The notes under the pieces are model-generated. The model had not been told where the DNA came from. It saw nothing but the letters and a program-made list of their open reading frames with translations, and searched no databases. A program made the position numbers and the translations under genes. Shown piece by piece: positions 29,001-63,550 of a stretch of DNA of 64,000 nt (position 1 is the first letter of the stretch; every line of letters starts with the position of its first letter). The DNA is from a virus, in IMG/VR virus record IMGVR_UViG_3300025101_000025, positions 1 through 64,000 of that record. One strand, 5' to 3'.

Positions 29001-30688
29001 CTGCAAATGTTCACTTTGATGGTGGAGTTGCTGTTGCGGCGACAATTTCAAATGGTGGAATTGGATATCAAGTCGGTGATATTGTAGGTATCTCTACCAA
29101 TCTTGGTATTAATGCAAGATTATCAGTGGCATCTATCGGAAATACAAGTGAACTTATACTTGAAAATATTCAAGGTGAATTTGCAACTGGAGCTGGATCA
29201 ACATTAATGTATGGAAATACACTTGGTAATGCAGGATTTGGTAGTGCAATCACAGGTAATGGTGGAGAGATTGGTGCATTTATTCCTGCGGGAACAATAT
29301 CAACTATAACTGATGGTTTACACATTATAGTTAATCACAAAAACCATGGAATGTATCACGAACAGAATAGAGTGATTATATCTGGAGTTGAAAGTGATAT
29401 ATTACCATCTAAATTATCTGTTGATTACGCAATAGATTCTACAGATGATATTACTGTTGACAGTTCAACTGTGTATAGTAATTTTGAAAATGTTGGTGTT
29501 GCATCTACTAATCCCGGATATGTTAAGATTGGAAATGAAATTATTAGATATGAAGGTGTATCTGGTAATACACTAACTGGTATTACAAGGCAACAAGATT
29601 CAACTCTTGCTGCAAATTACACATCAGGATTATTAGTTGAAAAATATGAATTGAATGGCGTATCTTTACGTAGAATAAATCAAACTCATAATCTAGCAGA
29701 TGTCACTGATTCAAATCCAATAACATTTGACTCGTATAAAATTAAATTAGATATGGGTTCAAATGGAATTGGTAGAACAAGCGTTACAACTTCAGATTTC
29801 CCACCAAGATTATTCTTAAATGGAACAAAATCATCCGGTGGTTCAAATATACGTGCAACACAAAACATGCCATTTGAAGTTATCACACCTATGGTTCAGA
29901 ATGTCACTGTTCCCGGAACTTCTCTCAGTGCTAACTTGAGAACTGTAAGTGGAACAAGTGTGAATACAGGATCTGGTCAAGGATCAGATACACCATTTAT
30001 TGTTCAACCAACAGAAAGTATCGCTTTAAATCAAATCAATTATTTGAATTCACCTAGAATAATTGCATCAAGAGTAAATGAAATTAACAATGCAACTATA
30101 ACAGTATTACCGGGAGATCGGTCATTAAATATGACACTTGATCTATCAACTACTGATAGTCGTATATCTCCTTTTGTTGATACTGAAAGAATGAATACAA
30201 TTCTTACCTCAAATAGAGTTGATAAATTAATTACTAACTTTACTGAAGATAGTCGAGTCGATACTCTTACTGAAGATCCATCATCATTCTTGTATATTTC
30301 AAAAGAAAATACATTAGAAACATCTGCTACATCAATCAAGATTATACTTGATGCACATATTAATGAATATAATGATATAAGAGCGTTCTTCTCAATTAGC
30401 GAGAATCAGGGGTCAGAACCGATATTCATACCGTTCCCCGGTTTTGATAATTTAAATGAAAGAGGACAGGTGGTTGCACTCGATAAGAGTGATGGAAGAC
30501 CAGATTCAAAAGTATCATTATCAGATGCTAGTGGATTTGCATCTGAAGAATTACAATATAAAGAGTATACATTCAGTATTACAGATCTACCCTCATTTAA
30601 ATCATTTAGAATAAAATTATTAGGATCATCAACCAATCAAGCTTATGTTCCTAGATTCAGAAGTTTGAAGGTGATCGCTTTAGCATAA
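23096..30688 (+). CDS. Very large virion protein with DUF4815-type N-terminus (2530 aa)
   Basis: 2530 codons in the place where T4 has gp9 to gp12. The start, SPYFDDFNADDNYYKVLFKPG, then LPVQARELTGLQSILQDQI and GQHIFKEG within the first 65 residues, matches DUF4815-type phage baseplate/tail proteins. A coiled-coil run lies near 1139-1165 (IRKLETRIRNLEYYTSLSL). SRNIAFEGKGFKPQTRVYGFF lies at about 1422-1442 and DDPLAQSFFVSENSGVYITS near 1703. GGxGY repeats lie near 1940-1990, and an HG.....V..I and EIIRYEG module near 2080-2150. Tail or baseplate attachment of fibres is the likely role, by inference from position and family. It starts six bases after gp8. Confidence 0.9.
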   Translation: MAQSTNLNVSPYFDDFNADDNYYKVLFKPGLPVQARELTGLQSILQDQISKFGQHIFKEGAKVIPGNTSYFKDYFCVEINNEYLGVTVESYIDQLIGRKIVGLTTGVTAVIVKILKSSDSERNNLTLYIKYHSSNVENNSGGLFDNGELLAADVDIISGPENSTFIPSGEAFASTVSTNSTSTGAAYSISEGVYFVRGTFVNVNSETILLSQYSNTPTGRIGLRVLEETVNSDEDSSLTDNSKGFNNFAAPGADRLKISCSLFFKGIDDLNDDDFVELASVRNGELRTRPTTSQYNILGDELARRTFAESGDYTVKPYSISVKESLNDDIGNNGVFFDGQSTDEGSIASEETGLYQVSAGRAFVKGYEIENIASTYLDFEKPRTEKTLANQRVNYNTGSTIRLNNQQGAPEVGIGNTFVVSLRDSRVNTLATADSSIEGNEIGVARVYDFALESGSYNTSNSKINEYDISLFDIQTFTTVTLNQAISLSTPAFIEGKYSGATGFLRSSTSTDALTIYDKSGELVVNEPLIINGIENSRIAVALTSFGMSDVKSLYAGPKLGNVGAGRSFVGDVIQKDEFIFGNALIKRSDLTTGLSTITSSNPEFPGKLKKGNLLKFGLGNNDPNFAKVTVVGTNDITVSGVTTVTGICDGGLPEGSDSLDTTLTDLTLITSPFAKSSDDNLFTEMPKKNISNVDLTRASLTIRKTFNVTINKTTDSLATAVDADTNETFLPFDEERYCLIRRVDGVTEVLTSDKFTFTNGGGTLQINNIGSDLSANQAATLIATLVKTNPKSKVKRKERINTLIVDKSRVAGAGIGGTTLNDGLTHGSFPFGTRVQDKKISLNTPDVIEVLGIYESTDTSNPSSPKVILSAIDGQTGRTEDLIVGEKMKGTQSGAVAIYAEKLSDAQISFVYLNDNRFKTGETINFQESNVGAIANTIDEPSKNISANFSFNTGQKNTIYDHGFITRKEDANQPSKKIKIYFENAYFEAADEGDITTANSYNGLDYGKDVQSFNGVRNTDLIDIRPRVSNYSVSESSRSPLEFFGRTFNTSGNSAANVLASDESILTDFSFYLGRIDRIFLTKYGKLTVQTGTPAENPDQPVPLDDSLEIASVTLPPYLYDVSQASLSFLKHKRYRMQDIRKLETRIRNLEYYTSLSLLETATSNLFVSDADGLNKFKSGFFVDNFTTFLTQESNIKIKNSIDTYNKEARPSHYTNSIDLVVGPVEGENTVSNGADPEGTNIKLTGTALTLDYSEVEFINQPFGTRTESVTPFLLNFWKGAIDLTPASDTWVDTVRLEAKVIEVEGNFAKTIKEAEKTQGLDPQTGLTEMIWQGWQTVWTGTERNIRTNTRTEEVDRNVDVNSQRRIETSTLNTIQDTFTDNFRVGTSTRQGSRELITETYDQESLGDRTISKEVIPIMRSRNIAFEGKGFKPQTRVYGFFDGVNVTKHCVPKLLEINMKSGVFQVGETVTGTVTDGGINSAKITFRVAVSNHKEGPYNSPTRVYATSPYTSTTGATQLETYSGAAGSVQLSGSGSVAIIPSTYSSTSTILNIDIISLSEQAQGAYFGQVTTDMVLKGNTSGAEAVITDVRLISDFSASVFGSFFIPDPNIPVNSRFETGKREFRLTDSQTNDIDSSTTVGSDVFEATGTLETVQENILSVRNAKRETLTSTQDRPARQFIGTDVNTEIIGTQPLRRVEEFDQDDPLAQSFFVSENSGVYITSCEVYFSAVDDNNVPVQLDIRTLKLGVPSQEVLPYSQILLDPDQITTSSNGSVATKFTFKSPVYLSPATEYAICMLSASAKYRVFISRIGENDLITDEFVSNQPTLGSLFKSQNASTWEPSQWEDLKFKLNRAQFVTSGSAEIYSPILGEGNAQIPKLLPDSLRMNSKKIRVGISSAFAAGIHPTLGNTIYQTVSNATGDFVGSAGIATGNLGVIRAGLGYTPASGNRGLIGIALTTITGSGRNATANVHFDGGVAVAATISNGGIGYQVGDIVGISTNLGINARLSVASIGNTSELILENIQGEFATGAGSTLMYGNTLGNAGFGSAITGNGGEIGAFIPAGTISTITDGLHIIVNHKNHGMYHEQNRVIISGVESDILPSKLSVDYAIDSTDDITVDSSTVYSNFENVGVASTNPGYVKIGNEIIRYEGVSGNTLTGITRQQDSTLAANYTSGLLVEKYELNGVSLRRINQTHNLADVTDSNPITFDSYKIKLDMGSNGIGRTSVTTSDFPPRLFLNGTKSSGGSNIRATQNMPFEVITPMVQNVTVPGTSLSANLRTVSGTSVNTGSGQGSDTPFIVQPTESIALNQINYLNSPRIIASRVNEINNATITVLPGDRSLNMTLDLSTTDSRISPFVDTERMNTILTSNRVDKLITNFTEDSRVDTLTEDPSSFLYISKENTLETSATSIKIILDAHINEYNDIRAFFSISENQGSEPIFIPFPGFDNLNERGQVVALDKSDGRPDSKVSLSDASGFASEELQYKEYTFSITDLPSFKSFRIKLLGSSTNQAYVPRFRSLKVIALA

Positions 30689-35157: not shown

Positions 35158-37092
35158 ATGTCGGATAAACTACCGTCAATAGAAGATTTCACCATTGTTG
35201 GTGATCTTCCATCAGTTGACGATTTAATAACTGAAGAAAAATTACCCTCATTGGACGAGTTCATTGAGAAAGAGGATGAAGATGAAGTAGAAGATACTGC
35301 ACCTTGTTCTATAGAAGAGAATATAACAGAGAAAGAAAAACAAGATTTAACAGAGATTTTACGTCTTATAAATGACGTAAGAAAAGATATTCCTGAGATT
35401 CCAGAGATAAAATCTTATGATGAAGAATTACAAAAAATATCAGAAAATATAGAAGAAGTCAGATCAGAGATTCCTGAAATTCCTGAAGTTAAATATTATG
35501 ACAATGAGATAGAAACTGTTCACAAATTACTTGATGATTTAAAAGAAGAGATAAATCGAAACGCTGCCGATATACCTGAAATTAAATATTATGATGAGCA
35601 GATTAATGAATTAGATGAAAAAATAAAAAATCTGCCAGAGATAAAACATTATGACAGTGATTTAACTTCTTTAAAAGAAGATATCATTGCAGTTAAAGAA
35701 TCTATACCAGTATTTCCTAAATGGGTAAATGAAGTTAATGAAGTCCCTGATTTTTCATGGATTGGAAAAACATTTAGTGTCATTGATGATGATTTTGTAA
35801 AAGTAAATGATGGAATGGATTCGATAAAAAATCGAATCAATAGAGAAGTTCAAGAAATTGCGGAAACATTTGAAGTTAAGGAATTTGAAAATAAAATAGA
35901 AGTAGAAAAAATTACAAAAAATTTAAAAGAGACTAAAGATAAAATTTTCAAAGAATTAAGAGAAGCGGCTTTAAAGATATGGGATCACCACCATGAATTT
36001 AAAGATGATGATCGTAAATTAAAAAAACAAATTCTTAGTCATTATAATGCTTTAAAACAGAAAGTAGATAGTGAAGTTAAAGAATTTAATCGTAAAAATT
36101 TAGAAACAAAAGATTTATCAAAAGGATACTTTGATACATTAGCAGAAGAAATATCTAATCTTCCTATTCCAAAATATTATGATGATAATATTAAAAATAT
36201 AGAAAAAGATGTTATTAAGTTAAATAATCATCATGATTATAATACAACTAATATAACAGAGTTATATAAGATTGTTGAAGAATTAAAAGAAAAACAAGAG
36301 ATATTAAAAGAGGAAGTAAATACTAGACCTATTCAACCAGATCCAAGTGAAGATAATACAGATCCCCTTACACCAACCAATCAAAATTTTGCAACTCATG
36401 AAGATCTAGCAGAACATTATAAACTGTTCGTAAACAGAATCCAACAACAATTATATACGATTGGTGGTGGTGGTGCAGGATTTATAAAAGATTTAGATGA
36501 TGTTACTTTTGATAGTGGAATAGGCACAAATAAATTATTAATTTATAATGGAAATAAATGGGTTGGTATTGCCAGCACAGCTTTAATAGGAAATATATCT
36601 GAAGTATCAGGTAATTTTAACGTTGCAGGAAACATAACTGCAACAGCAGCCACATTTACTGGAAACGTTACGGTTGGTGGAACTATCACATATGATGATG
36701 TAACATTTTTAGATTCGGTAGGAGTTGCAACTGCTAGAAGTGGTTTAGATGTTGGTGGTGGAAGTATTACTCCGATTATATCAATTCAAGCAGCAACTGA
36801 TACAACTACAACCACATCAGTATCTACAATTGATAGTTTCAGCAAATCAACGTTTAGATCAGCTCAATATCAAATACAAATAACACAGGGATCTAATTAT
36901 CATGTTACAACTTTGAATGTTTTACATGACGGGTCAACAGTGTTTTTAAATGAGTTTGGAACGATAAGGACAGGTGCATCTCTTGCATCTTTTGATGCTG
37001 ATATTAGTTCTGATAATGTAAGAGTTAGAGCAACTCCAACCACGGATTCATCCACTGTTTTTAAATTAACAAAAACCCTAACTAGAGTATGA
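35158..37092 (+). CDS. Segmented coiled-coil fibre protein, fibritin-like candidate (644 aa)
   Basis: 644 residues. Residues 4-36 hold three copies of a short linear motif, LPSIEDF, LPSVDDL and LPSLDEF. Residues about 75-400 are charged coiled coil broken at intervals of roughly 30-40 by IPEIxxYD elements (EIKSYDEEL, EVKYYDNEI, EIKYYDEQI, EIKHYDSDL, later IPKYYDDNI). The C-terminal 220 residues are beta-rich, with the cyanophage fibre run NITATAATFTGNVTVGGTITY and a final HDGSTVFLNEFGTI domain related to two domains in the giant gp7. The layout resembles T4 fibritin, a segmented trimeric coiled coil on the neck, and the neighbourhood is neck genes. Identity as whisker or side fibre is inference. 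Confidence 0.85.
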   Translation: MSDKLPSIEDFTIVGDLPSVDDLITEEKLPSLDEFIEKEDEDEVEDTAPCSIEENITEKEKQDLTEILRLINDVRKDIPEIPEIKSYDEELQKISENIEEVRSEIPEIPEVKYYDNEIETVHKLLDDLKEEINRNAADIPEIKYYDEQINELDEKIKNLPEIKHYDSDLTSLKEDIIAVKESIPVFPKWVNEVNEVPDFSWIGKTFSVIDDDFVKVNDGMDSIKNRINREVQEIAETFEVKEFENKIEVEKITKNLKETKDKIFKELREAALKIWDHHHEFKDDDRKLKKQILSHYNALKQKVDSEVKEFNRKNLETKDLSKGYFDTLAEEISNLPIPKYYDDNIKNIEKDVIKLNNHHDYNTTNITELYKIVEELKEKQEILKEEVNTRPIQPDPSEDNTDPLTPTNQNFATHEDLAEHYKLFVNRIQQQLYTIGGGGAGFIKDLDDVTFDSGIGTNKLLIYNGNKWVGIASTALIGNISEVSGNFNVAGNITATAATFTGNVTVGGTITYDDVTFLDSVGVATARSGLDVGGGSITPIISIQAATDTTTTTSVSTIDSFSKSTFRSAQYQIQITQGSNYHVTTLNVLHDGSTVFLNEFGTIRTGASLASFDADISSDNVRVRATPTTDSSTVFKLTKTLTRV

Positions 37093-37448
37093 AGACTTTT
37101 AAGGAATTCTTACAAGAGCAACCAACAATGTCGGGGGGAAATCCTCAAGCATATAGTCAGGATGCTGATGATAGTGGCCCTGTTGCCGGTCATGATAAAA
37201 GACTATTTCCTCAAGATATAGATCTTTTAGATCAAGGATTCCAAACTGCTGCAGAGACTGGAGAAAATCGTTATAACACATTTTCAAATGTGTATCCAGT
37301 TATGAGAGTATCGCTTTCAAATAATCAAGGTGATGGGCCTTCAATAGATAGTATGGTTGCAGCATCAAAGAAATTTGTTAATATAGAGGCAGCAAAAACT
37401 GCAGAAAGAATTAAAAAAACCTATCAACAATTCATGGGATACAGATGA
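37089..37448 (+). CDS. Putative capsid-targeted internal protein (119 aa)
   Basis: 119 residues. The N-terminus MKTFKEFLQEQ closely parallels the T4 capsid targeting sequence MKTYQEFIAEA of internal protein III, including an L-x-E at residues 8-10 where the prohead protease would cut. The remainder has GHDKRLFPQDIDLLDQGF and a helical C-terminus. It overlaps the fibre gene (ATGA) and the next targeted protein. Packaging into the head is inferred from the tag; the function after that is unknown. Confidence 0.75.
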   Translation: MKTFKEFLQEQPTMSGGNPQAYSQDADDSGPVAGHDKRLFPQDIDLLDQGFQTAAETGENRYNTFSNVYPVMRVSLSNNQGDGPSIDSMVAASKKFVNIEAAKTAERIKKTYQQFMGYR

Positions 37449-53709: not shown

Positions 53710-54204
53710 ATGGCAATAATTAAACCTATGCCGAAAAGAAAACGATCTGAACATTATGTGAATAACAAAGAGTTTCTTGCTGCTTTGATTCGATACCGTG
53801 AAGATGTAGAGATAGCAGAAATTAGAGGTAATCCAAAACCAGTTATTCCAAGATATATTGGTGATTGTTTTTTAAAGATTGCTAATCATCTATCATTTAA
53901 ACCAAACTTTGTAAATTATATGTTCAAGGAGGACATGATCTCTGATGGAATCGAAAATTGCGTTCAATACATACATAATTTTAATCCTGAGAAATCCAAA
54001 AATCCTTTTGCTTACTTTACGCAGATTATTCATTTTGCGTTTCTCAGGAGAATACAAAGAGAAAAAAGACAATTAGATATTAAAAATAAAATACTAGAAA
54101 GATCCGGTTATGATGAAGTCTTTCATGGTGATAAGGTTGACGGAATGGCTACTTCCGACTATAATCAAATTAAGGATGCAGTGCACTCTAAACTACGTTA
54201 TTAA
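53710..54204 (+). CDS. 55: Late transcription sigma factor gp55
   Basis: 164 residues, T4 gp55 having 185. VNNKEFLAALIRYREDVEIA, then IPRYIGDCFLKIANHLSFKPNF and the region-2-like DGIENCVQYIHNFNPEKSKN FAYFTQIIHFAFLRRIQREKR (split as CVQYIHNFNPEKSKN and FAYFTQIIHFAFLRRI) are the conserved gp55 core that binds the polymerase beta-prime coiled coil and the late box. It should recognise the TATAAATA-type boxes listed here. TAATG couples it to gp47. Confidence 0.95.
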   Translation: MAIIKPMPKRKRSEHYVNNKEFLAALIRYREDVEIAEIRGNPKPVIPRYIGDCFLKIANHLSFKPNFVNYMFKEDMISDGIENCVQYIHNFNPEKSKNPFAYFTQIIHFAFLRRIQREKRQLDIKNKILERSGYDEVFHGDKVDGMATSDYNQIKDAVHSKLRY

Positions 54205-55244
54205 TGAAAATTGCGATTATAACAGATCAACACTTCGGGTGTCGTAAGAACTCGCAAATTTTTCATGATTATTTTTTGAAATTTTATAATGATATATTTT
54301 TTCCTAAACTAGAAGAAGAAGGTATCACTACCATAATTGATATGGGAGATACTTTCGATAGTCGAAAGGGGATTGATTTTTCTGCTTTAACTTGGGCAAA
54401 GAAAAATTACTTTGATAGACTTAAGCAGATGGGTATAACAGTTCATACTATTGTTGGAAATCATACTGCATATTATAAAAATACAAATGAAGTAAATGCT
54501 ATTGATTTATTATTGAAAGAATATGACAATGTAAGAGTATATTCTGAAACAACTAATATATGCATAGATGGATTAAATATTCTTCTTGTTCCTTGGATCA
54601 ATTCAGAAAATAAAGAGAAAAGTTTAGCATTAATTAAAGACTCACAATCTCCTGTTTGTATGGGACATCTGGAGTTAAAGGGTTATAAAGTAAATGAATA
54701 TGTTGTAATGGATCATGGGTTAGATGATAAACCTTTTGAAAAATTTGAAAGAGTTTTCTCTGGACATTTTCATACAAGATCAAATAATGGTAAAGTTTAT
54801 TACTTTGGTAATCCTTATGAAATGTATTGGAATGATTATGATGATACAAGAGGATTTCATTTCTTTGATACAAACACCTTAGAGCATACTGCAGTTAATA
54901 ATCCATATCGTTTCTTCTATAAAATTTATTATGAGGATACACCTCATCAAACTTTTGATACAAGAGAATACGAAAATAAAATTGTAAAATTAATTGTTCG
55001 TAAAAAATCTGATCCTAAAAAGTTTGAAAAGTTTATTGATAAATTATATGCTTCAAATATTCATGAACTTAAAGTTATTGAAAATTTTCAATTGCATGAG
55101 AATGAAGAGTTTGAGGCTTTTGAATCAGAAGACACTCTCTCTATTTTAAATAGGTATGTTGAAGAATCTGATGTTGATCTCAAAAAATCTACAATACAAG
55201 ATTTGATTAAAGAAGTTTATCAAGAGGCATGTGAATTAGTTTAA
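54204..55244 (+). CDS. 47: Recombination nuclease subunit gp47 (Mre11-type)
   Basis: 346 residues, T4 gp47 having 339. Calcineurin-like phosphoesterase motifs are complete: IITDQHFG with Asp8 and His10, DMGDTFDSRKG, GNHTAYYKN, GHLELKGY, and FSGHFHTRS. These bind the two metals of the nuclease site. The C-terminal part from about 240 (KIVKLIVRKKSDPKKFEKFI) is the partner-binding region. With gp46 it resects DNA ends for recombination-dependent replication. TAATG overlaps on both sides. Confidence 0.96.
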   Translation: MKIAIITDQHFGCRKNSQIFHDYFLKFYNDIFFPKLEEEGITTIIDMGDTFDSRKGIDFSALTWAKKNYFDRLKQMGITVHTIVGNHTAYYKNTNEVNAIDLLLKEYDNVRVYSETTNICIDGLNILLVPWINSENKEKSLALIKDSQSPVCMGHLELKGYKVNEYVVMDHGLDDKPFEKFERVFSGHFHTRSNNGKVYYFGNPYEMYWNDYDDTRGFHFFDTNTLEHTAVNNPYRFFYKIYYEDTPHQTFDTREYENKIVKLIVRKKSDPKKFEKFIDKLYASNIHELKVIENFQLHENEEFEAFESEDTLSILNRYVEESDVDLKKSTIQDLIKEVYQEACELV

Positions 55245-55516
55245 TGTTTGTTCTAACAATCGTAGGAAGAGAAGATGAAGGAGCATACTCTGTTCAAAAT
55301 GAAGAAGGTGATAGTATCTTGTATCTTTTTGAAGAACAAGACGATGCTGTTAGATATGCTATGATGTTAGAGGATATGGATTATCCTGAAATGCATGTGA
55401 TGGAAGTCGATCCAGCTGCTATGTTAAACTTATGTCAAAATTATGATTATGAATACACGGTTATTACTCCAAATGATATTGTTATCCCACCTGATATAGA
55501 GCATGATTTTATTTGA
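55244..55516 (+). CDS. DUF3110-like protein between gp47 and gp46 (90 aa)
   Basis: 90 residues. The pattern VLTIVGREDEGAYSVQ, then ILYLFEEQDDAVRYAMMLE with MDYPEMHVMEVD and VIPPDI near the end, follows the DUF3110 family of cyanobacteria and plastids as I remember it (EGIHTL, VLLFEDEDDAERFA..LE, DFP.P.V..ID). DUF3110 has no established function. TAATG couples it to gp47, and gp46 starts inside its last codons, so it is translated together with the two nuclease subunits. Confidence 0.8.
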   Translation: MFVLTIVGREDEGAYSVQNEEGDSILYLFEEQDDAVRYAMMLEDMDYPEMHVMEVDPAAMLNLCQNYDYEYTVITPNDIVIPPDIEHDFI

Positions 55517-57215
55517 AAAAGTTCGTTGGAAAAATTTCCTTTCAACGGGTGATCAATATTCTGAGATAGATTTTCAAGGTTCATCTACAACTTTGATAGT
55601 GGGATCTAATGGAAGTGGAAAGAGCACAGTTTTGGATGCTTTAACTTTTGGTTTGTTTTCAAAACCATTTCGTAAGATAAACAAAAGTCAATTAATTAAT
55701 ACTGTTAATGAGAAAGATTTAAGAGTTGAAGTTGAATTTGTAATAGGAACAATAACATGGAAAGTAATTCGTGGTATCAAACCAAATATATTTGAGATAT
55801 GGAGAAATGATAAACTACTTGATCAGTTTGCATCTGTAAATGATCAGCAAAAATGGTTAGAACAAAATGTAGTAAAGATGAATTATAAATCGTTTACACA
55901 GATTGTAATTCTAGGATCAAGTAACTTTGTCCCATTCATGCAATTAAGTGCAACGAATCGTAGAGAAGTAATTGAAGATTTACTTGACATAAAAATATTC
56001 ACATCGATGAATAATATTATCAAGGATAAGATTAGGCAAGTTAAAGAGAAAACAAAAACTTTAGATCTTAAAAAAGAATCTTTAATTGATAAAGTTTCTA
56101 TGCAAGAAAGATTTATGAATGAAATAGAGACTCGTGGTAAAGAGGATATTGAAAAGAAGAAAAAAAAGATGGATAGTTTAGGTGATGATATTTGTGTTTG
56201 TATTATGCAGAATGAGGAGGCAGAGGATAGTATCTATGGATTGCAGCAAAAACAAGAAAAATTAACAGCAGCATCAGACACTTTAGCTAAACTTAATAAT
56301 TTAAAAGGTCAGATATCTAATAAAGTATCAATGATATCTAAAGAGGATAAATTTTTTAAAGACAATACGGTTTGTCCTACATGCACTCAGGAAATCGATG
56401 AAGATTTCAGAATAAATAAAATCAATGACGCTCAAAATAAAGCAAAGAAGTTGCAATCAGGTTATAAAGAACTTGAAGATACAATTAAAAAAGAACAAGA
56501 AAGAGAGCGTCAATTTACAAAAATATCAAAGGAGATTACTAAACTCACGCATGGCATTTCTCAAAACAACTCTCTCATCTCTAACTGTCAAAAACAACAA
56601 CGAGATCTTAAAGATGAAGTTCAAACACTTACCAATCAAATTGAAAACAGAAATACTGAGCATGAAAAGTTAGAAACATTTAAACAAAATCTCCAAGATA
56701 CATATGAAGAATTAGGGTCTCAGAAAGAGAAAATAAAATATTTTAATTATACCTATGAGTTATTGAAAGATGGTGGAGTTAAAGCAAAAATTATAAAGAA
56801 GTATTTACCATTAATAAATCAACAGATAAATCGTTATCTACAGATGATGGACTTCTATATTAATTTTACTCTTGATGAAGAGTTTAATGAAACTGTTCAA
56901 TCACCAATTCATGAAGATTTTTCATATGCTTCGTTTAGTGAGGGAGAAAAACAAAGAATAGATTTAGCTTTGTTATTTACTTGGAGAGAAGTTGCTAAGT
57001 TTAAAAATTCAATATCTACTAATTTAATGGTATTGGATGAGGTGTTTGATAGTTCACTTGATGGTCAAGGAACAGAGGAATTTTTAAAGATAATTAAATA
57101 TGTTATTGAAGATGCTAACATATTTGTTATTTCTCACAAAACAGGTCTAGATGATAGATTTGAAAATGTGGTAAGATTTGAAAAAATTAAAGGATTCAGT
57201 AGGATGGTATCATGA
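55503..57215 (+). CDS. 46: Recombination nuclease subunit gp46 (Rad50-type ATPase)
   Basis: 570 residues, T4 gp46 having 560. Walker A GSNGSGKST at 34-42, long central coiled coils, a zinc-hook CPTC at about 291-294, ABC signature FSEGEKQR at 478-485 and Walker B LMVLDEVFD with Asp512-Glu513, then ISHK for the H-loop. It works with gp47 as an SbcCD/Rad50-Mre11-type end-processing complex. Overlaps the DUF3110-like gene by 14 nt and the following dehydrogenase by ATGA. Confidence 0.96.
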   Translation: MILFEKVRWKNFLSTGDQYSEIDFQGSSTTLIVGSNGSGKSTVLDALTFGLFSKPFRKINKSQLINTVNEKDLRVEVEFVIGTITWKVIRGIKPNIFEIWRNDKLLDQFASVNDQQKWLEQNVVKMNYKSFTQIVILGSSNFVPFMQLSATNRREVIEDLLDIKIFTSMNNIIKDKIRQVKEKTKTLDLKKESLIDKVSMQERFMNEIETRGKEDIEKKKKKMDSLGDDICVCIMQNEEAEDSIYGLQQKQEKLTAASDTLAKLNNLKGQISNKVSMISKEDKFFKDNTVCPTCTQEIDEDFRINKINDAQNKAKKLQSGYKELEDTIKKEQERERQFTKISKEITKLTHGISQNNSLISNCQKQQRDLKDEVQTLTNQIENRNTEHEKLETFKQNLQDTYEELGSQKEKIKYFNYTYELLKDGGVKAKIIKKYLPLINQQINRYLQMMDFYINFTLDEEFNETVQSPIHEDFSYASFSEGEKQRIDLALLFTWREVAKFKNSISTNLMVLDEVFDSSLDGQGTEEFLKIIKYVIEDANIFVISHKTGLDDRFENVVRFEKIKGFSRMVS

Positions 57216-58000
57216 TTGGAATTGTTGGTAATGGTTTTGTTGGCAACGCTGTCTATCAAAATTTTAGAGACAAAACACAATGCAAGGTCTATGACACAGA
57301 CAAAAATAGATCTTTAAATACTTTAGGAGAGGTAATAAATGAGAATTTTATTTTCGTTTGTTTACCAACCCCAATGAGATATGGGGGTGAGTGTGATTTA
57401 TCAATCTTAAATAAATTTTTTGAGGATTTGCCAGATCATATTACTGGAACATTTGTTATCAAATCAACTGTTCCAATAGGAACAACTAAAAAGTTTTTTG
57501 AGAGACATAATGTAATTCATAATCCAGAATTTTTAACTGCTAGAAATGCAATAAAAGACTTTGCAAATTCTGAGAGAAATATTGTTGGTGGTGATATGGA
57601 ATTATGTGTTGATTTTGTTCGTATGTTTGAAGAATATTTTCCTCACATTCCAAGTATCATTACAACTTCTGATGAGAGTGAAGCAATTAAGTATTTTTCA
57701 AATACATTTCTTGCATACAAAGTAGCATACTTCAATAAAATATATGATTTATGTCAAAAGGTTGGTATGGATTATGATGTAGTGGTTGAAGGTGTGACTG
57801 CAGATAGTCGCATTGGTAAATCACATACTAAAGTTCCCGGAATTGATAATGATCGTGGATTTGGTGGAACTTGTTTTCCTAAAGATTTGAACTCATTGAT
57901 TGTTCAGATGGAATCTCATGGTGTAAATGCTGATATGTTCAAAGAAATATGGAAGTATAATCAAGAGATTAGAAATGTAATTGATTGGCCAGTAACATGA
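57212..58000 (+). CDS. Nucleotide-sugar dehydrogenase, C-terminally short (UDP-glucose/GDP-mannose type)
   Basis: 262 residues; family members usually exceed 400. NAD-binding GIVGNGFVGNAV at 3-14, VCLPTPMRYGGECDLS, VIKSTVPIGTTKKF, HNPEFLTARNAIKDF and the catalytic loop GFGGTCFPKDLNSL with Cys221 are all present. The C-terminal nucleotide-sugar binding domain is missing; the gene stops at WPVT and the next gene starts at the stop codon. The two-step oxidation of UDP-sugars to uronates is the family reaction; whether the short form is active, perhaps as a domain-swapped dimer, is open. The enzyme probably acts with the next two genes. Confidence 0.9.
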   Translation: MIGIVGNGFVGNAVYQNFRDKTQCKVYDTDKNRSLNTLGEVINENFIFVCLPTPMRYGGECDLSILNKFFEDLPDHITGTFVIKSTVPIGTTKKFFERHNVIHNPEFLTARNAIKDFANSERNIVGGDMELCVDFVRMFEEYFPHIPSIITTSDESEAIKYFSNTFLAYKVAYFNKIYDLCQKVGMDYDVVVEGVTADSRIGKSHTKVPGIDNDRGFGGTCFPKDLNSLIVQMESHGVNADMFKEIWKYNQEIRNVIDWPVT

Positions 58001-58722
58001 AAGTATTAGTAACAGGACATCGTGGATTTATCGGTAGATATGTATTTGCTGATTGGAGAAAGGAATTGGGTTATGAGGTGCATGGTATTGATTTTCCTGA
58101 TGATATAAAAAATTTTAAAGGTGGTGATTATGGATTAGTCATACATCTTGCTGCGTATGCTGATTTACGAGAAAGTGTAGAACAACCAGAAAAGTATTAT
58201 GAAAATAATGTTGTAAAATCAAAACCACTGTTTGATTGGTGTCGAGAAACAAATACAAGATTATTATATGCATCAACTGGTGCTGCAAATGAAAACTATT
58301 GGGATAATCCTTATGCTTTGAGTAAGTGGGTAAATGAGCAAATGGCTCCACCTAATTCTGTTGGTATGAGATTTTCGACAGTGTATGGGCCTGATGTCAG
58401 ACCAAATATGATGTATGGTTTGCTACGAGATAAAAAGGCAACCTATGTGACTAATCACAAAAGAGATTGGATTCATGTTAAGGATGTGTGTAGTGCAATA
58501 AGATATCTTGCTCCTAGTTCAATAACAGGCCCAGTTCAAATAGGGTATGGAGAATCTGTTCCAGTTAAAAAACTTGCAGAAAAATTTGGACAAGGTGATT
58601 TACCTGTTAAAGATTACACTCCCGGTGAAGTGGATGATAATGTTGCTGATATATCTGTGATGGCAAGTATTGGATGGATGCCAACAATTAGTGTATTGGA
58701 GTCAGTAGATGCCGACCTATAA
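57997..58722 (+). CDS. NAD-dependent sugar epimerase/dehydratase (extended SDR)
   Basis: About 241 residues from the ATG overlapping the previous stop (ATGA); a TTG start 12 nt earlier is less likely. Rossmann motif VTGHRGFIG with Gly7, Gly10 and Gly13, VIHLAAYADLRES, and the catalytic pair in NPYALSKW (Tyr106, Lys110), then MRFSTVYGPDVRPN. It is somewhat shorter than the usual 300 or more residues. Likely epimerises or dehydrates an NDP-sugar. Its coupling with the dehydrogenase and a sulfotransferase suggests synthesis of an acidic modified sugar. Confidence 0.88.
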   Translation: MKVLVTGHRGFIGRYVFADWRKELGYEVHGIDFPDDIKNFKGGDYGLVIHLAAYADLRESVEQPEKYYENNVVKSKPLFDWCRETNTRLLYASTGAANENYWDNPYALSKWVNEQMAPPNSVGMRFSTVYGPDVRPNMMYGLLRDKKATYVTNHKRDWIHVKDVCSAIRYLAPSSITGPVQIGYGESVPVKKLAEKFGQGDLPVKDYTPGEVDDNVADISVMASIGWMPTISVLESVDADL

Positions 58723-59341
58723 ACAACTAAGACCTGAATTTCCTAGTCCTGCAAAAAGATTATTTCATATCCACATACCTAGAACCGCAGGTAGATTTTT
58801 GATGAATAATATTTTATCAAATGGATTTGATCTTGAAGGAACAATTTTACCAACAGAAAATGGAATGGAACCACAACATTTTCATGCAGAATTATATGAG
58901 AGATATTATGATATTGCAAATATTCCACATATTGCAATTGTTCGTAATCCTATAGATCGATTTATATCATGTTCAATATTTTTAAAAAAAATGTATGGTG
59001 ACATACAAGATGCAATGGAAGATCCAATGATGTTTTCGTCTTTAATTGAAAACTATCCATTTGAAGGTATTAATTGGTTTAGACCACAGATGGATTTTAT
59101 TACTGATGAAACTAATCTTTGGAAATTTGAAGATGGATTTGGTAGTGACTTTGATGAGTGGATGACAGATTTGATTGGTGCACCATATGTTACTAAAGAT
59201 GTGCCATACCAAAAACTGGTAATAAATGAGGATGACAAATTAATAAAGACTGATAGAATTATAGATAATATCAAGTCGTTATATAGAAAGGACATTGAGC
59301 AACTCTATCCCGAATTGGCAACACCACAAGAAACCACTTAA
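58709..59341 (+). CDS. Sulfotransferase-family protein
   Basis: 210 residues. HIHIPRTAGRFLMNN at 20-34 matches the 5'-phosphosulfate loop (HIPKTAGT-type) of the Sulfotransfer_2 family, and IAIVRNPIDRFISCSIF at about 75-91 matches the 3'-phosphate motif. PEFPSPAKRLF precedes. It would move sulfate from PAPS to a carbohydrate hydroxyl. The gene overlaps the epimerase by 14 nt, and a hairpin terminator follows. Sulfation of an O-antigen- or capsule-like sugar or of a virion glycan is inferred from neighbours. Confidence 0.82.
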   Translation: MPTYKQLRPEFPSPAKRLFHIHIPRTAGRFLMNNILSNGFDLEGTILPTENGMEPQHFHAELYERYYDIANIPHIAIVRNPIDRFISCSIFLKKMYGDIQDAMEDPMMFSSLIENYPFEGINWFRPQMDFITDETNLWKFEDGFGSDFDEWMTDLIGAPYVTKDVPYQKLVINEDDKLIKTDRIIDNIKSLYRKDIEQLYPELATPQETT

Positions 59342-59384: not shown

Positions 59385-59388
59385 TAAT
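59383..59388 (+). promoter_or_regulatory. Possible -10 TATAAT before the VWA gene
   Basis: TATAAT directly after the hairpin, 25 nt before the ATG at 59414. No good -35 is visible at 16-18 nt. Confidence 0.4.
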
Positions 59389-59413
59389 GGCCATATACAC
59401 ACACAGGAAACAG

Positions 59414-61612
59414 ATGGCAGTTCAATACGAAATCAAATCACAACTTGCAAAACTACTTGCAACAGAAGATCTTATTGTTGAGCATAAGCATGTAGAGACA
59501 GCGCAGTTCAATGTCCAGACCCGCGTATTGATTCTGCCTCTTTGGGAGAAAGCAAGTAATTCTGTATATGATATGTTGGTAGCGCATGAAGTTGGGCATG
59601 CGTTATTTACACCTAATGAAGATTATAGAGACAAAGTAAAAATACCTTTTGATTTCATAAATGTTTGCGAAGATGCTCGTATAGAGAAGTTGATGAAGCG
59701 TAAGTATCAGGGTCTTCCAAAAACATTTTATTATGGATATAGTGATCTTCATGATGATGATTTCTTTAATGTAGTAGATGTTGATTTTGAAAAATTTAAT
59801 CTTGCTGATAAAGCAAATCTTCATTTCAAGATTGGTAATTTTATTGATATAACATTTACCTCAAAAGAGAAGGAGATTATTGACGAGATTGCTAACACAG
59901 AAACTTTTGATGAAGTTCTTGTAGTATCAGAGAAGTTATATAATTACTGCAAGGAGAATATGGAGGATCAGAAGAAGCAAGTTCAAGATCTTGATCTTCA
60001 TATGACTCCACAAACAGGACAACCAGAATCTCCAGAGTCATCTGATAGTAATGATGATGGTGAGTTAGAAGAAGTTGATCAGCAAGTCACTCAATCAGGA
60101 ACTGAACCACAAAATGATTTTGGTTCAGATGAAGGTGGTGATATGGTTACACCAGAGGATGAGCAATCTGATTCTCCTTATGATCCTGATTCTTCAGAAC
60201 CACAAGTTGCAACTGCAGAAGAGTTGGAGAAGAGTTTAAAAGATTTAATTGCAAGTCATGATGGTAGAGAGAATATCTATGTTGAGTTACCTGATGTTAA
60301 ACTTGACAAAATTATTGAATCTAATAGTGAGGTTCATGATGTTATCGAAAAACATTTTGCATGGGAGTGGAGTAGAATTAAAGCAGATAGAGAGAAGAAT
60401 GGATATTCATGTGTTGCAAATCCATTTGAAGAAATTGATTCTGAATTTAATAATTTTAAAAAGAATGCAAGAAAGGAAGTTAATTATCTTGTTAAAGAGT
60501 TTGAGTGTAAGAAAGCTGCATCTGCATATGCTCGTGCTGCAGTAGCTCGCACTGGTGTATTGAATACATCAAAACTTCATACTTATAAGTTCAATGAAGA
60601 TCTTTTCAAAAAAGTTACCATATTACCTGATGGTAAAAATCATGGATTAGTATTCATTCTTGATTGGTCAGGATCAATGCAATATATCTTACAGGATACT
60701 TTAAAGCAACTTTATAATTTAATTTGGTTCTGCAGAAAAGTAAATATTCCCTTTGATGTATATGCTTTTTCAAATGAATTCAAACGTGATGAGGGTTGGG
60801 GTTATTCTCATAATTATGATACTGTTGCCTATGAGAAGAGAGAGAACGTAATGGCAATTGATAGTTGTTTTTCTCTCATGCATTTTTTCTCAAGTGATGT
60901 TAAAGGAAAAGATCTTGAACATCAAATGCTTAACATATGGAGAGTTGCATCTTTATTCAGAGTATGGGGTCATGTAACTTACCCACGTAGACTTGCATTA
61001 TCAGGAACACCATTGAACGAATCATTAATCACTCTACGTCAAATTCTTCCAGAGTTCCAAAAGAAACATAACCTTGAAAAAGTTCAGTGTATTGTTCTTA
61101 CTGATGGTGAAGCTGGACATCTCTCATATCATGTGGAGGTTAAACGTTCTTGGGAAGATGAACCATACATGGGAACACGCGGTATCGTTCCTGAAGCGAC
61201 ATTTATACGTGACCGTAAACTTGGTTGTAATTATAAAATTGGTTATAGATATACAGATTTTACAGATACTATTCTTCAAAATCTTCAAGATCTATTTCCA
61301 ACAGTAAACTTTATCGGCATTCGAGTTATCGTTCCTAGAGCTGCATTATCTTTTGCAAGACATTTTACAACTGATGAAACAAAGTTAAATGTGATTGAGA
61401 AAGATTGGAAAAAAACAAAAAGTTTCAATATTGTTGACTCTGCTTATGATGCATATTTTGTAATGTCATCAGTAAATCTTAATGACAATTCAGATTTTCA
61501 AGTAAAGGAAGATGCTACCAAGTCGCAGATTAAATCAGCATTTGTTAGATCACTCAAGACAAAAAAACTAAATAAAAAAGTATTGGGCGAATTTATTTCT
61601 TTAGTGGTATGA
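59414..61612 (+). CDS. HEXXH metallopeptidase-VWA fusion protein (CobT-like)
   Basis: I start it at the second Met (59414) since AGGAAACAG lies just before it; the ATG at 59387 overlaps a TATAAT box. From there 732 residues. MLVAHEVGHALFTP has a gluzincin HEVGH at 58-62, and NVCEDARIEKLM places a probable third ligand, Glu86. Residues about 185-290 are acidic and low-complexity. A VWA domain follows: DWSGSM with Asp417, Ser419 and Ser421 (MIDAS), SGTPLNES, and LTDGEAG with Asp564. Such VWA proteins act as substrate adaptors of MoxR/CobS-type AAA+ ATPases; one is encoded 0.8 kb downstream. Cobalt chelation is unlikely, as no cobalamin genes are present. Confidence 0.87.
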   Translation: MAVQYEIKSQLAKLLATEDLIVEHKHVETAQFNVQTRVLILPLWEKASNSVYDMLVAHEVGHALFTPNEDYRDKVKIPFDFINVCEDARIEKLMKRKYQGLPKTFYYGYSDLHDDDFFNVVDVDFEKFNLADKANLHFKIGNFIDITFTSKEKEIIDEIANTETFDEVLVVSEKLYNYCKENMEDQKKQVQDLDLHMTPQTGQPESPESSDSNDDGELEEVDQQVTQSGTEPQNDFGSDEGGDMVTPEDEQSDSPYDPDSSEPQVATAEELEKSLKDLIASHDGRENIYVELPDVKLDKIIESNSEVHDVIEKHFAWEWSRIKADREKNGYSCVANPFEEIDSEFNNFKKNARKEVNYLVKEFECKKAASAYARAAVARTGVLNTSKLHTYKFNEDLFKKVTILPDGKNHGLVFILDWSGSMQYILQDTLKQLYNLIWFCRKVNIPFDVYAFSNEFKRDEGWGYSHNYDTVAYEKRENVMAIDSCFSLMHFFSSDVKGKDLEHQMLNIWRVASLFRVWGHVTYPRRLALSGTPLNESLITLRQILPEFQKKHNLEKVQCIVLTDGEAGHLSYHVEVKRSWEDEPYMGTRGIVPEATFIRDRKLGCNYKIGYRYTDFTDTILQNLQDLFPTVNFIGIRVIVPRAALSFARHFTTDETKLNVIEKDWKKTKSFNIVDSAYDAYFVMSSVNLNDNSDFQVKEDATKSQIKSAFVRSLKTKKLNKKVLGEFISLVV

Positions 61613-62094
61613 TCACATTCAAAGAATTCATGCAAGAGAGCAGTCTCTCTCGTATAAAAAGTAAATCAGATAAGAGTGGCATAGCAACTCTTTCGGGTGA
61701 TCGTGGTGACAAATCAAGGAAAGAAAATCAAGCAAGATCAAAACAATTGCAAAAAGATATTCGTGGTAAGTTTGGTAGAGGGCCAACTAAATTAAAGGGA
61801 TCATATTTAGAAAATCCCGGTTCAAAAGATGAGAGAAAAGTAAAAGAGAAAAGTTATGCAATAGATCGTGGTAAGATGGGTAAAAGAAAATTCAAGAAAG
61901 AAGTTAAGAAGTTAGGTAAGAAGTATGGGCAGGATTCCGTATTAACACAAACTAAAAAAACTGCTACACTACATAGAACAAGAAAAGGTGGATTAGATAA
62001 AAAAGGAGAAAATGTCGGTAGGTTTAAACCACAAGGTAAAAACCCATACGGTCAATCACAAATTAAAGGTAAAACTTTCGCATATGGAGATTAA
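61609..62094 (+). CDS. Basic protein with capsid-targeting-like N-terminus (161 aa)
   Basis: 161 residues, strongly Lys/Arg-rich. MITFKEFMQESSL at the start parallels MKTYQEFIAE of T4 internal proteins, with a possible gp21 cut after Glu10. The rest holds GRGPTKLKGSYLENPG, KRKFKKEVKKLGKKYGQDSV at about 101-120, and GKNPYGQSQIKGKTFAYG. It could be packaged in the head with the DNA and injected. Alternatively it may be a substrate of the metallopeptidase it overlaps (ATGA). No family named. Confidence 0.75.
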   Translation: MITFKEFMQESSLSRIKSKSDKSGIATLSGDRGDKSRKENQARSKQLQKDIRGKFGRGPTKLKGSYLENPGSKDERKVKEKSYAIDRGKMGKRKFKKEVKKLGKKYGQDSVLTQTKKTATLHRTRKGGLDKKGENVGRFKPQGKNPYGQSQIKGKTFAYGD

Positions 62095-62331
62095 ATGACA
62101 AAACCTTATGATGACTCCAATTGGAGAGAAGAATACAAACAGTATACAAGTGATAAATATTATCTTGAATTACTGGAAAATGGGCCTAAAAGTTTATCTC
62201 AGTCGTGGATACTAGGTGCATTATATAATAAATGGAAAAAGATAAAGGGGTATCATAAGTATGATCCTAAAGAGAATACAGGGCAGTGTCAATCCTCTTT
62301 TGCAGAGTGGGAATCAAAGATAAATAACTGA
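62095..62331 (+). CDS. Small protein, unknown (78 aa)
   Basis: 78 residues, starting at once after the previous stop. Tyr/Trp-rich: DDSNWREEYKQYTSDKYYLE, then SQSWILGALYNKWKKIKGY. Similar small proteins occur in cyanophages, in my recollection, but none has a function. Last gene of the metallopeptidase operon. Confidence 0.7.
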   Translation: MTKPYDDSNWREEYKQYTSDKYYLELLENGPKSLSQSWILGALYNKWKKIKGYHKYDPKENTGQCQSSFAEWESKINN

Positions 62332-62384
62332 CACTAAAGACAATAAACAAACTGTCCCTTTTAGTGGTATATGCGATCATAGTT

Positions 62385-62396
62385 TGATATAGTAAA
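62385..62396 (+). promoter_or_regulatory. Possible promoter -10 before the AAA+ gene
   Basis: TTGATATAGTAAAG contains TATAGT (62388-62393), the same -10-like box as in the early cassettes, 26 nt before the ATG. No matching upstream box. Confidence 0.4.
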
Positions 62397-62419
62397 GGTA
62401 TACAAACACAAATCGCATC

Positions 62420-63550
62420 ATGACAAAAAAATTATTCAAACCCTTTGAAGTCAAAATGACTCGTGAAGAAATTATTGAGGGTCTTAGATCCAACTATGGC
62501 ACTGAATTTACTGCTGCTGATGTAAAAGGTTTTTGTGCGATGAATGATATTGCATATTCGACCATTACCAAAAAGATTGATGAGTTTAAAGTTGGTCGTG
62601 GAAAGTGGAATTTTGAAGTTACTAAAAAATCAGTAGAAAAGATAGAGCGTTCATTTAGTGCTCCAAGCGTTACACCTTTTGTGGAAGAAAATCTAGTTCC
62701 TACAATAAATGACACATTCGTAAAGTTTGGTAGTTTTACTGATCTTAGAAGTATTATTAAGTCAAAATTATTCTATCCTACATTTATCACAGGTTTATCT
62801 GGTAACGGAAAAACTTTTAGTGTTGAGCAAGCATGTGCACAACTCAACAGAGAACTTGTTCGTGTAAACATTACAATCGAAACAGATGAAGATGATCTTA
62901 TTGGCGGTTTCCGTCTTGTTAATGGTGAAACCGTATGGCACAATGGCCCAGTCATCGAAGCACTTGAGCGAGGTGCAATATTGTTACTTGACGAAATCGA
63001 CCTTGCATCCAACAAGATCCTCTGCCTTCAGAGCATCCTTGAAGGAACTGGAGTCTTTCTTAAAAAAATTGGGAGATTTGTCAGACCATCCGCAGGATTC
63101 AACGTCATTGCCACCGCAAATACTAAAGGTAAGGGTTCAGACGACGGAAGATTTATTGGAACTAACGTGCTCAATGAGGCCTTCCTTGAAAGATTCCCAG
63201 TAACGTTCGAGCAAGAATATCCTGCACCAAAGACAGAGCAAAAGATTCTTGCTAATGCATCTGCAGAAATTGGTATCAAAGATGCTGATTTTTGTAAGAG
63301 ACTTGTTGATTGGGCAGACATCATTCGTAAGACATTCTACGATGGTGGTGTAGAGGAGATCATTTCTACTCGTCGTTTAGTTCATATCATTCGTGCATAT
63401 GGAATCTTCAAGAACAAAGCAAAAGCAATCGAAGTATGTGTCAATCGTTTTGATGATGAGACTAAGCAATCATTCATGGAGTTATATGACAAAGTGGATG
63501 CAGATGTAGATTTTAATCAAGAGAACAATGGATCTGTGGAACAAGTATAA
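62420..63550 (+). CDS. cobS: MoxR/CobS-like AAA+ ATPase
   Basis: 376 residues. Walker A GLSGNGKTFS at 125-134, DEDDLIGGFRLVNGETVWHNGPV at about 154-176, Walker B LLLDEIDLA with Asp191-Glu192, ATANTKGKGSDDGRF for the sensor region, and a Arg-rich STRRLVHIIRAYG near 306. The N-terminal 100 residues form a small separate domain (ITKKIDEFKVGRGKWNFEV). T4-like cyanophages carry this gene as cobS, after the cobalt chelatase subunit. With the VWA-peptidase close by, a MoxR-VWA remodelling machine is the better reading. I keep the symbol only as the usual label. Confidence 0.92.
   Translation: MTKKLFKPFEVKMTREEIIEGLRSNYGTEFTAADVKGFCAMNDIAYSTITKKIDEFKVGRGKWNFEVTKKSVEKIERSFSAPSVTPFVEENLVPTINDTFVKFGSFTDLRSIIKSKLFYPTFITGLSGNGKTFSVEQACAQLNRELVRVNITIETDEDDLIGGFRLVNGETVWHNGPVIEALERGAILLLDEIDLASNKILCLQSILEGTGVFLKKIGRFVRPSAGFNVIATANTKGKGSDDGRFIGTNVLNEAFLERFPVTFEQEYPAPKTEQKILANASAEIGIKDADFCKRLVDWADIIRKTFYDGGVEEIISTRRLVHIIRAYGIFKNKAKAIEVCVNRFDDETKQSFMELYDKVDADVDFNQENNGSVEQV

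Follow-up and report, generated by a model that had tools for sequence, protein, structure and literature searches.

A CobS/CobT-related gene pair of T4-type cyanophages as a candidate AAA+/VWA remodeling machine of phage DNA metabolism

Two nearby genes in a 64,000-nucleotide stretch of viral DNA (the whole of the sequence analyzed here, called the window; IMG/VR record IMGVR_UViG_3300025101_000025) encode a CobT-like VWA protein and a CobS-like AAA+ ATPase, which may together form one AAA+/VWA remodeler that carries a probably active zincin domain and acts on protein complexes in the DNA metabolism of the phage. The identity of the pair as a remodeling machine is well supported, and the target is suggested by gene context; for this reading we estimate a probability of roughly 0.5. 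A preliminary description of the locus presented the machine as undescribed, which is wrong because cobST pairs have been reported in tailed viruses, the core genome of cyanophages included (Liu et al. 2021, PMC8651126), and the architecture has been reported from group 2.2 jumbo phages, in the form of MoxR-vWA-metallopeptidase pairs (Iyer et al. 2021, PMC7824862). The viral cobST genes are the same genes as the window pair. They were read as a cobaltochelatase, and the usual annotation of cobT as a peptidase was called a misannotation (PMC8651126), whereas the window pair has an invariant, complete peptidase-type site and misses the cobaltochelatase cut-offs. The jumbo-phage pair (ASV44728/ASV44729), going by its architecture as described in the available part of PMC7824862, has the same three parts, namely, an AAA+ partner, a VWA domain, and an N-terminal metallopeptidase; that part makes no link to cyanophage cobS.

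On every contig of sufficient length, the VWA and AAA+ genes are found together. Both were present in 135 of 160 IMG/VR loci, with a spacing of up to 4.0 kb, and in the remaining 25 the contig runs out no more than 2.7 kb away on the side where the partner would lie, in agreement with the coupled AAA+/VWA/metallopeptidase-type machine with obligate pairing that had been proposed. No independent occurrence of the two genes, the finding that the preliminary description had said would count against it, was seen within the Kyanoviridae type. At one locus (L209), an apparent exception, a CobT match that lacks the N-terminal part has no CobS within 9 kb. The pair is carried by nearly all T4-type phages of cyanobacteria, and the INPHARED counts are equal for the two genes (365 each for Synechococcus, 61 for Cyanophage, and 24 for Prochlorococcus). 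The genes lying between the two had been suggested to encode a substrate or regulator. However, the VWA gene occurs in 463 INPHARED records and the SAM-lyase-like intervening gene in only 13, and S-PM2 has no gene between the pair; the intervening genes are therefore optional and were ruled out as fixed partners. One of them had been described as encoding a basic protein with a packaging-type N terminus, and that N terminus is indeed present (MITFKEFMQE), but the body of the protein is assigned by Pfam to the S-AdoMet lyases. A VWA partner in Staphylococcus Kayvirus was also considered and rejected: 236 records were left out because the gene following the weak AAA+ match is DUF7192.

The gene for the VWA protein with its N-terminal HExxH domain (PHROG_459, "peptidase") lies on the plus strand, as do all features given here, at positions 59414..61612 and encodes 732 aa. 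The longest open reading frame uses an alternative upstream start (59387-61612, 741 aa); the start at 59414 is preferred because AGGAAAC lies just 5' of its start codon and its methionine is kept by all 38 of the 38 relatives compared. In the numbering of the 741-aa frame, the putative zincin active-site helix HEVGH occupies aa 67-71 (59585..59599), within a predicted helix at 58-74, and EDARIE (59669..59686; E95 and E100) is a candidate third-metal-ligand helix on the basis of conservation, its hhalign alignment to a CobT-like set, and a predicted helix at 88-106. An acidic linker modeled at low confidence (aa 203-268, 59993..60190; pLDDT below 50) leads from the zincin-like part to the VWA part, whose VWA (MIDAS) domain covers aa 417-740 (60635..61606) and includes the MIDAS residues DWSGS (D426-W-S-G-S430, aa 426-430; 60662..60676), T541 (61007-61009), and D573 (61103-61105). 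All of these MIDAS residues, together with H67, E68, H71, E95, and E100, are identical in 128 of 128 sequences whose median identity to the window protein is 56%, an invariance far beyond chance. The HEVGH motif, downstream glutamate, and MIDAS noted earlier in the 732-aa protein were thus confirmed, and the HExxH motif, whose lack of conservation had been named as grounds for dismissal, is conserved within the Kyanoviridae type (128/128).

Judged by its sequence, the N-terminal domain of the phage VWA protein is a CobT homolog with a complete zincin site, a finding that is new here. Its hhalign match to the CobT-like set, which includes a cellular CobT, has a probability of 98.7% (E value, 2.5e-16), concerns the N-terminal domain only, and aligns EDARIE with its counterpart EQARVE in the homologous domain of cellular CobT. 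HExxH is degraded or absent in the cellular CobT examined, whereas the phage protein has the HExxH motif and downstream acidic ligand of zincin metallopeptidases, conserved in all 128 sequences. With CobT homology and a complete zincin site combined, the labels "CobT-like" and "peptidase-like" are therefore both correct, which reconciles two conflicting annotations of this protein. Modeled alone, the domain reached a pLDDT of 84.4, and the top rows of a fold search were mostly zincins, with ArdC best (Z score, 7.7), ZMPSTE24 at 6.5, minigluzincins at about 6.3, and Wss1 and PprI at 5.4 each; these scores are modest, as is the Foldseek E value (0.088), and the match to zincins is one of motif together with a modest likeness of fold. 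Wss1/SPRTN, PprI/IrrE, and ArdC are zincin proteases acting around DNA that, unlike the phage protein, have no VWA domain, and at such scores their likeness is one of fold, with homology not implied. No solved CobT chain was among the fold-search matches, although CobT entries exist by sequence, and we draw no conclusion from this absence. The zincin domain of the phage VWA protein is probably active, as its intact motif suggests. HExxH has been lost in the Stenotrophomonas, nickie, Acinetobacter, and L246/L247 relatives, which keep the pair, and proteolysis is therefore not essential everywhere.

The CobS-like AAA+ ATPase gene (PHROG_249; 62420..63550, 376 aa) encodes a Walker A motif, GLSGNGKT (aa 125-132; 62792..62815), and the motif NEAFLERF, both present in 41 of 41 relatives, and a Walker B motif, LLLDEID (aa 188-194; 62981..63001), exact in 37 of 41. 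The protein passes the cut-offs of AAA_5 (PF07728; 4.4e-18, 66.1 bits versus 22) and CbbQ_C (24 bits versus 20.6) but stays below that of the classical MoxR model AAA_3 (PF07726; 21.5 versus 27 bits). The Walker motifs reported earlier stand; the label "MoxR-type" is loose. The closest solved fold to the VWA domain is the midasin MIDAS (Z score, 16.1; rmsd, 3.8; 224 residues aligned), and the next matches in the PDB are Rea1 (15.3) and NorD (15.1). A VWA domain with a complete MIDAS encoded near an AAA+ gene, by which MoxR-superfamily AAA+/VWA partnerships are recognized, is found here. Cellular CobS-CobT resembles the phage pair in combining an AAA_5/CbbQ_C ATPase with a VWA protein, and NorQ-NorD and midasin/Rea1 resemble it in that a VWA domain with a MIDAS works with a motor of the AAA_5 type; NO reductase is the target of the former and pre-60S ribosomes are that of the latter. 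The MIDAS of midasin docks substrates through metal coordination. We know of no report of an N-terminal zincin domain in either NorQ-NorD or midasin/Rea1.

Related pairs sit in DNA replication and recombination modules of several unrelated elements, which is also new here. Upstream of the window pair, and not part of it, are gp47 (54204-55244; Pfam Metallophos_2) and gp46 (55503-57215; Pfam SMC_N/AAA_23) of the Mre11/Rad50-type recombination nuclease, ordered as in S-PM2, where the series continues as gp46-VWA-CobS-gp45. Ochrobactrum phage OC and pelagiphage Mosig have the order gp46...CobT-CobS...gp45; at locus L165 the downstream names gp45, gp44, and gp62 come from gene order and reading rather than from a family search. 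Among 80 SSU5-type loci, 78 have CobT-CobS and 75 have DnaE downstream; ICP2 has primase, helicase, and polymerase genes downstream; and on IncC plasmids the CobS-like and VWA genes flank ssb-bet-exo. Otherwise unrelated elements thus show gp46-pair-gp45, ligase-pair-DnaE, and an arrangement around ssb-bet-exo, while the neighbors of the Gordonia relatives are uninformative. With relatives in clusters for DNA copying and recombination, the role of the pair therefore probably concerns phage DNA rather than vitamin making, with the caveat that operon context may mirror timing instead of function. The uses in host takeover, maturation, or lysis suggested in the preliminary description were unsupported, the gene context pointing instead to DNA replication and recombination. 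In IMG/VR, queries with the Ochrobactrum and ICP2 proteins gave nothing usable, and a plasmid search with the window protein returned no match. A genome_contigs search for close cellular relatives gave 12 matches, which look like phage contigs within marine assemblies. An origin in anti-phage defense was considered and dropped, PADLOC giving no result for the window pair.

We hypothesize that the two genes encode a single AAA+/VWA remodeling machine, a distant relative of CobS-CobT. In it, the CobS-like protein would form a ring that pulls on or unfolds a target at the expense of ATP, and the VWA protein may be the adaptor, with the metal site of its MIDAS serving to hold the target, as in midasin and NorD. 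The zincin-like N-terminal domain would probably bind zinc and could clip the engaged protein. Going by the location of the relatives, the target would most likely be a complex, of protein or nucleoprotein, that takes part in replicating or recombining phage DNA.

It has been proposed that viral CobST takes over the CobN of the host and thereby increases cobalamin production (Liu et al. 2021, PMC8651126), and recent papers still count cyanophage cobS among the auxiliary metabolic genes for B12 (PMC11705849, PMC11288001). The homology of the pair to CobS and CobT is consistent with such an accessory role, as are the CobN-family genes in Prochlorococcus and Synechococcus assemblies, with the qualification that PF02514 also covers ChlH. 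However, the window AAA+ protein scores 77 bits against the CobS equivalog TIGR01650 (cut-off, 558.55), and the VWA protein has no match at an E value of 1 or below to the CobT equivalog TIGR01651 (cut-off, 759.05); related phage and plasmid proteins score 68 to 173 bits (CobS) and 80 to 108 bits (CobT), whereas a true CobS and a true CobT reach 641 and 995 bits, respectively, on the same models. By these sequence models the window proteins and their scored relatives fall short of the curated cut-offs by hundreds of bits (new here), and the earlier skepticism about the cobalamin label was justified. The AAA+ tree separates phage proteins from cellular CobS (branch support, 100/99), a split used with caution and the only one used, as the Gordonia, ICP2, and IncC branches are very long. 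CobN is absent in E. coli, yet its phages and plasmids carry relatives of the pair; moreover, the complete zincin site is missing from the cellular CobT examined, and there are no cobalamin genes among the annotated neighbors. To our knowledge, SAR11 does not synthesize B12; phage Mosig infects Pelagibacter HTCC1062. We regard the cobaltochelatase role as improbable, and in the best explanation the machine would not be a cobaltochelatase.

A virion-assembly chaperone with a processing protease, maturing structural proteins, is possible but on the whole not likely. That role was proposed for the jumbo-phage pairs of the same architecture, with the tail system of ATV as the analogy (Iyer et al. 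2021, PMC7824862), and the Mosig pair lies near structural genes, with capsid genes about 12 kb away; against this, the adjoining genes in several lineages are those of replication and recombination, conjugative IncC plasmids carry related genes and produce no virions, and the available part of PMC3037559 does not list the product of either gene among virion proteins. It is quite unlikely that the zincin-like domain of the remodeler has, like that of cellular CobT, a metal site of purely structural function and no proteolytic activity. The degraded HExxH of cellular CobT and of several paired phage relatives indicates that the domain can function without catalysis, but every catalytic zincin residue of the phage protein, the general-base Glu68 included, is invariant (128/128), and the HExxH glutamate would be superfluous at a structural site. 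An unlikely further reading would make the pair a phage counterpart of p97 with SPRTN/Wss1, the eukaryotic partnership of an AAA+ unfoldase and a zincin protease, in which the motor and VWA adaptor would extract proteins stuck on or bound to phage DNA and the zincin would cleave them, and this clearing would let replication and gp46/47 recombination go on.

If the pair is a DNA-associated remodeling machine, the widely repeated ecological inference about B12 from cyanophage cobS would be wrong. In addition, two core genes in one of the commonest phage groups of the ocean would gain a testable function. Should it also act in the manner of p97 and SPRTN, such a system would be common to T4-type cyanophages, SSU5-type phage-plasmids, IncC plasmids, and archaeal viruses.

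We place the machine encoded by the VWA gene (59414 to 61612, plus strand) and the CobS-like AAA+ ATPase gene (62420 to 63550, plus strand) probably in DNA metabolism, mainly because DNA genes recur as neighbors of the pair in diverse phages and a conjugative plasmid. In the window, the first 64,000 bases of a 72,674-base virus record, the pair lies in a T4-type cluster ordered gp55, gp47, gp46, three sugar/sulfo genes, VWA, a SAM-lyase-family gene, a 78-aa gene, and CobS-like. The late sigma gp55 was identified by PHROG family search (PHROG_234) and gp47 and gp46 by Pfam domains; genes farther along the record, beyond the window, are read as gp45, speD, gp44, and gp62 from gene order and sequence. 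The order in S-PM2 is gp55, gp47, gp46, VWA, CobS, gp45, gp44, with VWA and CobS directly adjacent, whereas the window carries between gp46 and VWA an insert missing there in S-PM2 (57212 to 59341; UDP-glucose dehydrogenase, nucleotide-sugar epimerase, and sulfotransferase by Pfam). Ochrobactrum phage OC and pelagiphage Mosig, where sequence searches also reached the pair, retain the same gene region as S-PM2. Among SSU5-type loci, CobS adjoins CobT in 78 of 80 and DnaE lies downstream in 75 of 80, often with ligase and primase upstream of the pair; in ICP2, primase, helicase, and polymerase follow it. On IncC plasmid pK71-77-1-NDM (2735 to 10728 of the fetched locus), the CobS-like AAA+ and HExxH-VWA genes flank ssb, bet, and exo. 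For Hardycor1, an AAA/VWA pair has been described as part of a replication/accessory module that also holds a Holliday junction resolvase (PMC7911831). Pair neighbors in Gordonia phages were uninformative. A DUF3150 gene adjoins the VWA gene in pK71-77-1-NDM, and the VWA match recurs across hundreds of conjugative plasmids. The window also contains very long open reading frames (8369 to 21508, 4,379 aa; 23096 to 30688, 2,530 aa), of a size uncommon in T4-type cyanophage regions.

The preliminary description had expected the two genes to co-occur across cyanophages and the HExxH motif to be conserved, and both expectations are upheld within the Kyanoviridae type. Of 160 IMG/VR loci retrieved through either gene, 135 contain both; having been picked by similarity, the loci are not independent samples. 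Each of the remaining 25 ends within 2.7 kb on the expected partner side, and intergenic gaps of up to 4.0 kb occur. In INPHARED, 463 records have the VWA gene and 460 cover 80% or more of the CobS-like gene; the two genes tally equally for Synechococcus, Cyanophage, and Prochlorococcus. Across 128 aligned VWA relatives (48 to 59% identity to the window protein), H67, E68, H71, E95, E100, D426, S428, S430, T541, and D573 are invariant (741-aa frame, from the upstream start at 59387). The start at 59414, giving 732 aa, is favored, as it follows AGGAAAC and encodes a Met that never varies.

The basic protein encoded 3′ of the VWA gene was correctly credited with a packaging-type N terminus, MITFKEFMQE, which resembles the T4 capsid targeting sequence (CTS); its body belongs to the Pfam S-AdoMet lyase family (61609 to 62094, 161 aa, 1.9e-18). 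The CTS-like pattern occurs in 39 of 52 relatives, and most others start similarly. Possibly, the protein is packaged with the DNA, enters the host with it, and acts against restriction. The sole other such open reading frame found in the record encodes a 119-aa protein (37089 to 37448; MKTFKEFLQE).

Sequence searches found CobS-like matches with VWA neighbors in Ochrobactrum phage OC, Stenotrophomonas BUCTxx99, Klebsiella phi12.3, Pseudomonas nickie, Rhizobium RHph_Y2_11, Salmonella SSU5, Acinetobacter p5846, Vibrio ICP2, and IncC plasmids. VWA proteins from Klebsiella, Stenotrophomonas, and ICP2 pass the Pfam CobT VWA-domain cutoff, and the IncC protein narrowly passes the CobT N-terminal one (26.6 versus 26.1). 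Kyanoviridae proteins are too diverged for these models; since their profile aligns with a CobT-like set over the N-terminal domain (98.7% probability, E 2.5e-16), the sequence evidence indicates that the window VWA protein is a distant CobT homolog. GTDB genomes of Bacteriovorax, Chloroflexi, Latescibacterota, Woesearchaeota, and others also contain VWA genes of the cyanophage type, most likely on phage contigs binned under the wrong host.

HExxH is absent from the one cellular CobT examined (Methylobacterium; 995 bits in the CobT equivalog), which retains the second glutamate motif in the form EQARVE; when aligned, the solved CobT 9uka shows the same. Most of the CobT-like phage and plasmid proteins retain HExxH, as do 72 of 80 SSU5-type loci; among the remaining eight, six have partial or split protein matches, and two (L246 and L247) read HEVAR. 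It is also lost in Stenotrophomonas, nickie, and Acinetobacter relatives. These relatives, together with L246 and L247, retain the CobT-CobS pair and are natural tests of metal-site importance. Folded alone, the N-terminal domain (pLDDT 84.4) is predicted to carry HExxH and E95/E100 on two consecutive helices. Zincins make up most of its top PDB matches, which include ArdC (Z 7.7, rmsd 4.1, 117 aligned), ZMPSTE24 (6.5), abylysin and selecase (about 6.3), and Wss1 and PprI (both 5.4). These scores are modest (Foldseek E 0.088), and the zincin assignment therefore rests mostly on motif conservation. The VWA protein matches PHROG_459, "peptidase" (1.3e-257), a label that Liu et al. (PMC8651126) considered a mistake; we regard "peptidase" and "CobT" as each partly right.

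The CobS-like protein matches PHROG_249, "porphyrin biosynthesis" (5e-137). That the pair serves as a cobaltochelatase accessory is an unlikely reading. The cutoffs are far out of reach: the window AAA+ scores 77 bits against 558.55 for CobS, and related phage and plasmid proteins score 68 to 173 (CobS) and 80 to 108 (CobT; cutoff 759.05), while a true cellular pair gives 641 and 995. Related pairs also occur on phage-plasmids of E. coli and on IncC plasmids, yet E. coli, which was among 14 control genomes, has no CobN-family gene. A single branch (100/99) in a 50-sequence AAA+ tree, which has long branches, splits cellular CobS from phage and plasmid proteins. Because cyanobacterial assemblies do carry CobN-family genes, the chelatase reading is only weakened, and the doubt that the preliminary description cast on cyanophage cobS as a cobalamin gene holds to that extent.

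The machine can no longer be called undescribed: the cyanophage cobST pair (PMC8651126) and the AAA+/VWA/metallopeptidase architecture of jumbo phages (PMC7824862) are published. Within the portions of the open-access PMC literature covered, we found neither a link between these two descriptions nor a comparison of the metal site with that of cellular CobT, the cutoff tests, or the shared DNA-module context, which to that extent are new here.

The VWA domain's closest solved folds are human midasin MIDAS (Z 16.1, rmsd 3.8, 224 aligned), Rea1 (15.3), and NorD (15.1), in a whole-protein model with pLDDT 73.6; the AAA+ protein matches Pfam AAA_5 and CbbQ_C, and its relatives of known structure are CobS, NorQ, CbbQ, and midasin. 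If the machine works as NorQ-NorD and midasin do, the VWA domain would present a target via its MIDAS metal, the AAA+ ring would remodel it, and the zincin-like domain may cut it. Remodeling alone can suffice, as some paired relatives have lost HExxH. The N-terminal domain's fold neighbors include Wss1, SPRTN-type proteins, PprI, and ArdC, all of which act around DNA. Together with gene context, they suggest that the pair may remove proteins from phage DNA, a hypothesis to which we give roughly one chance in six.
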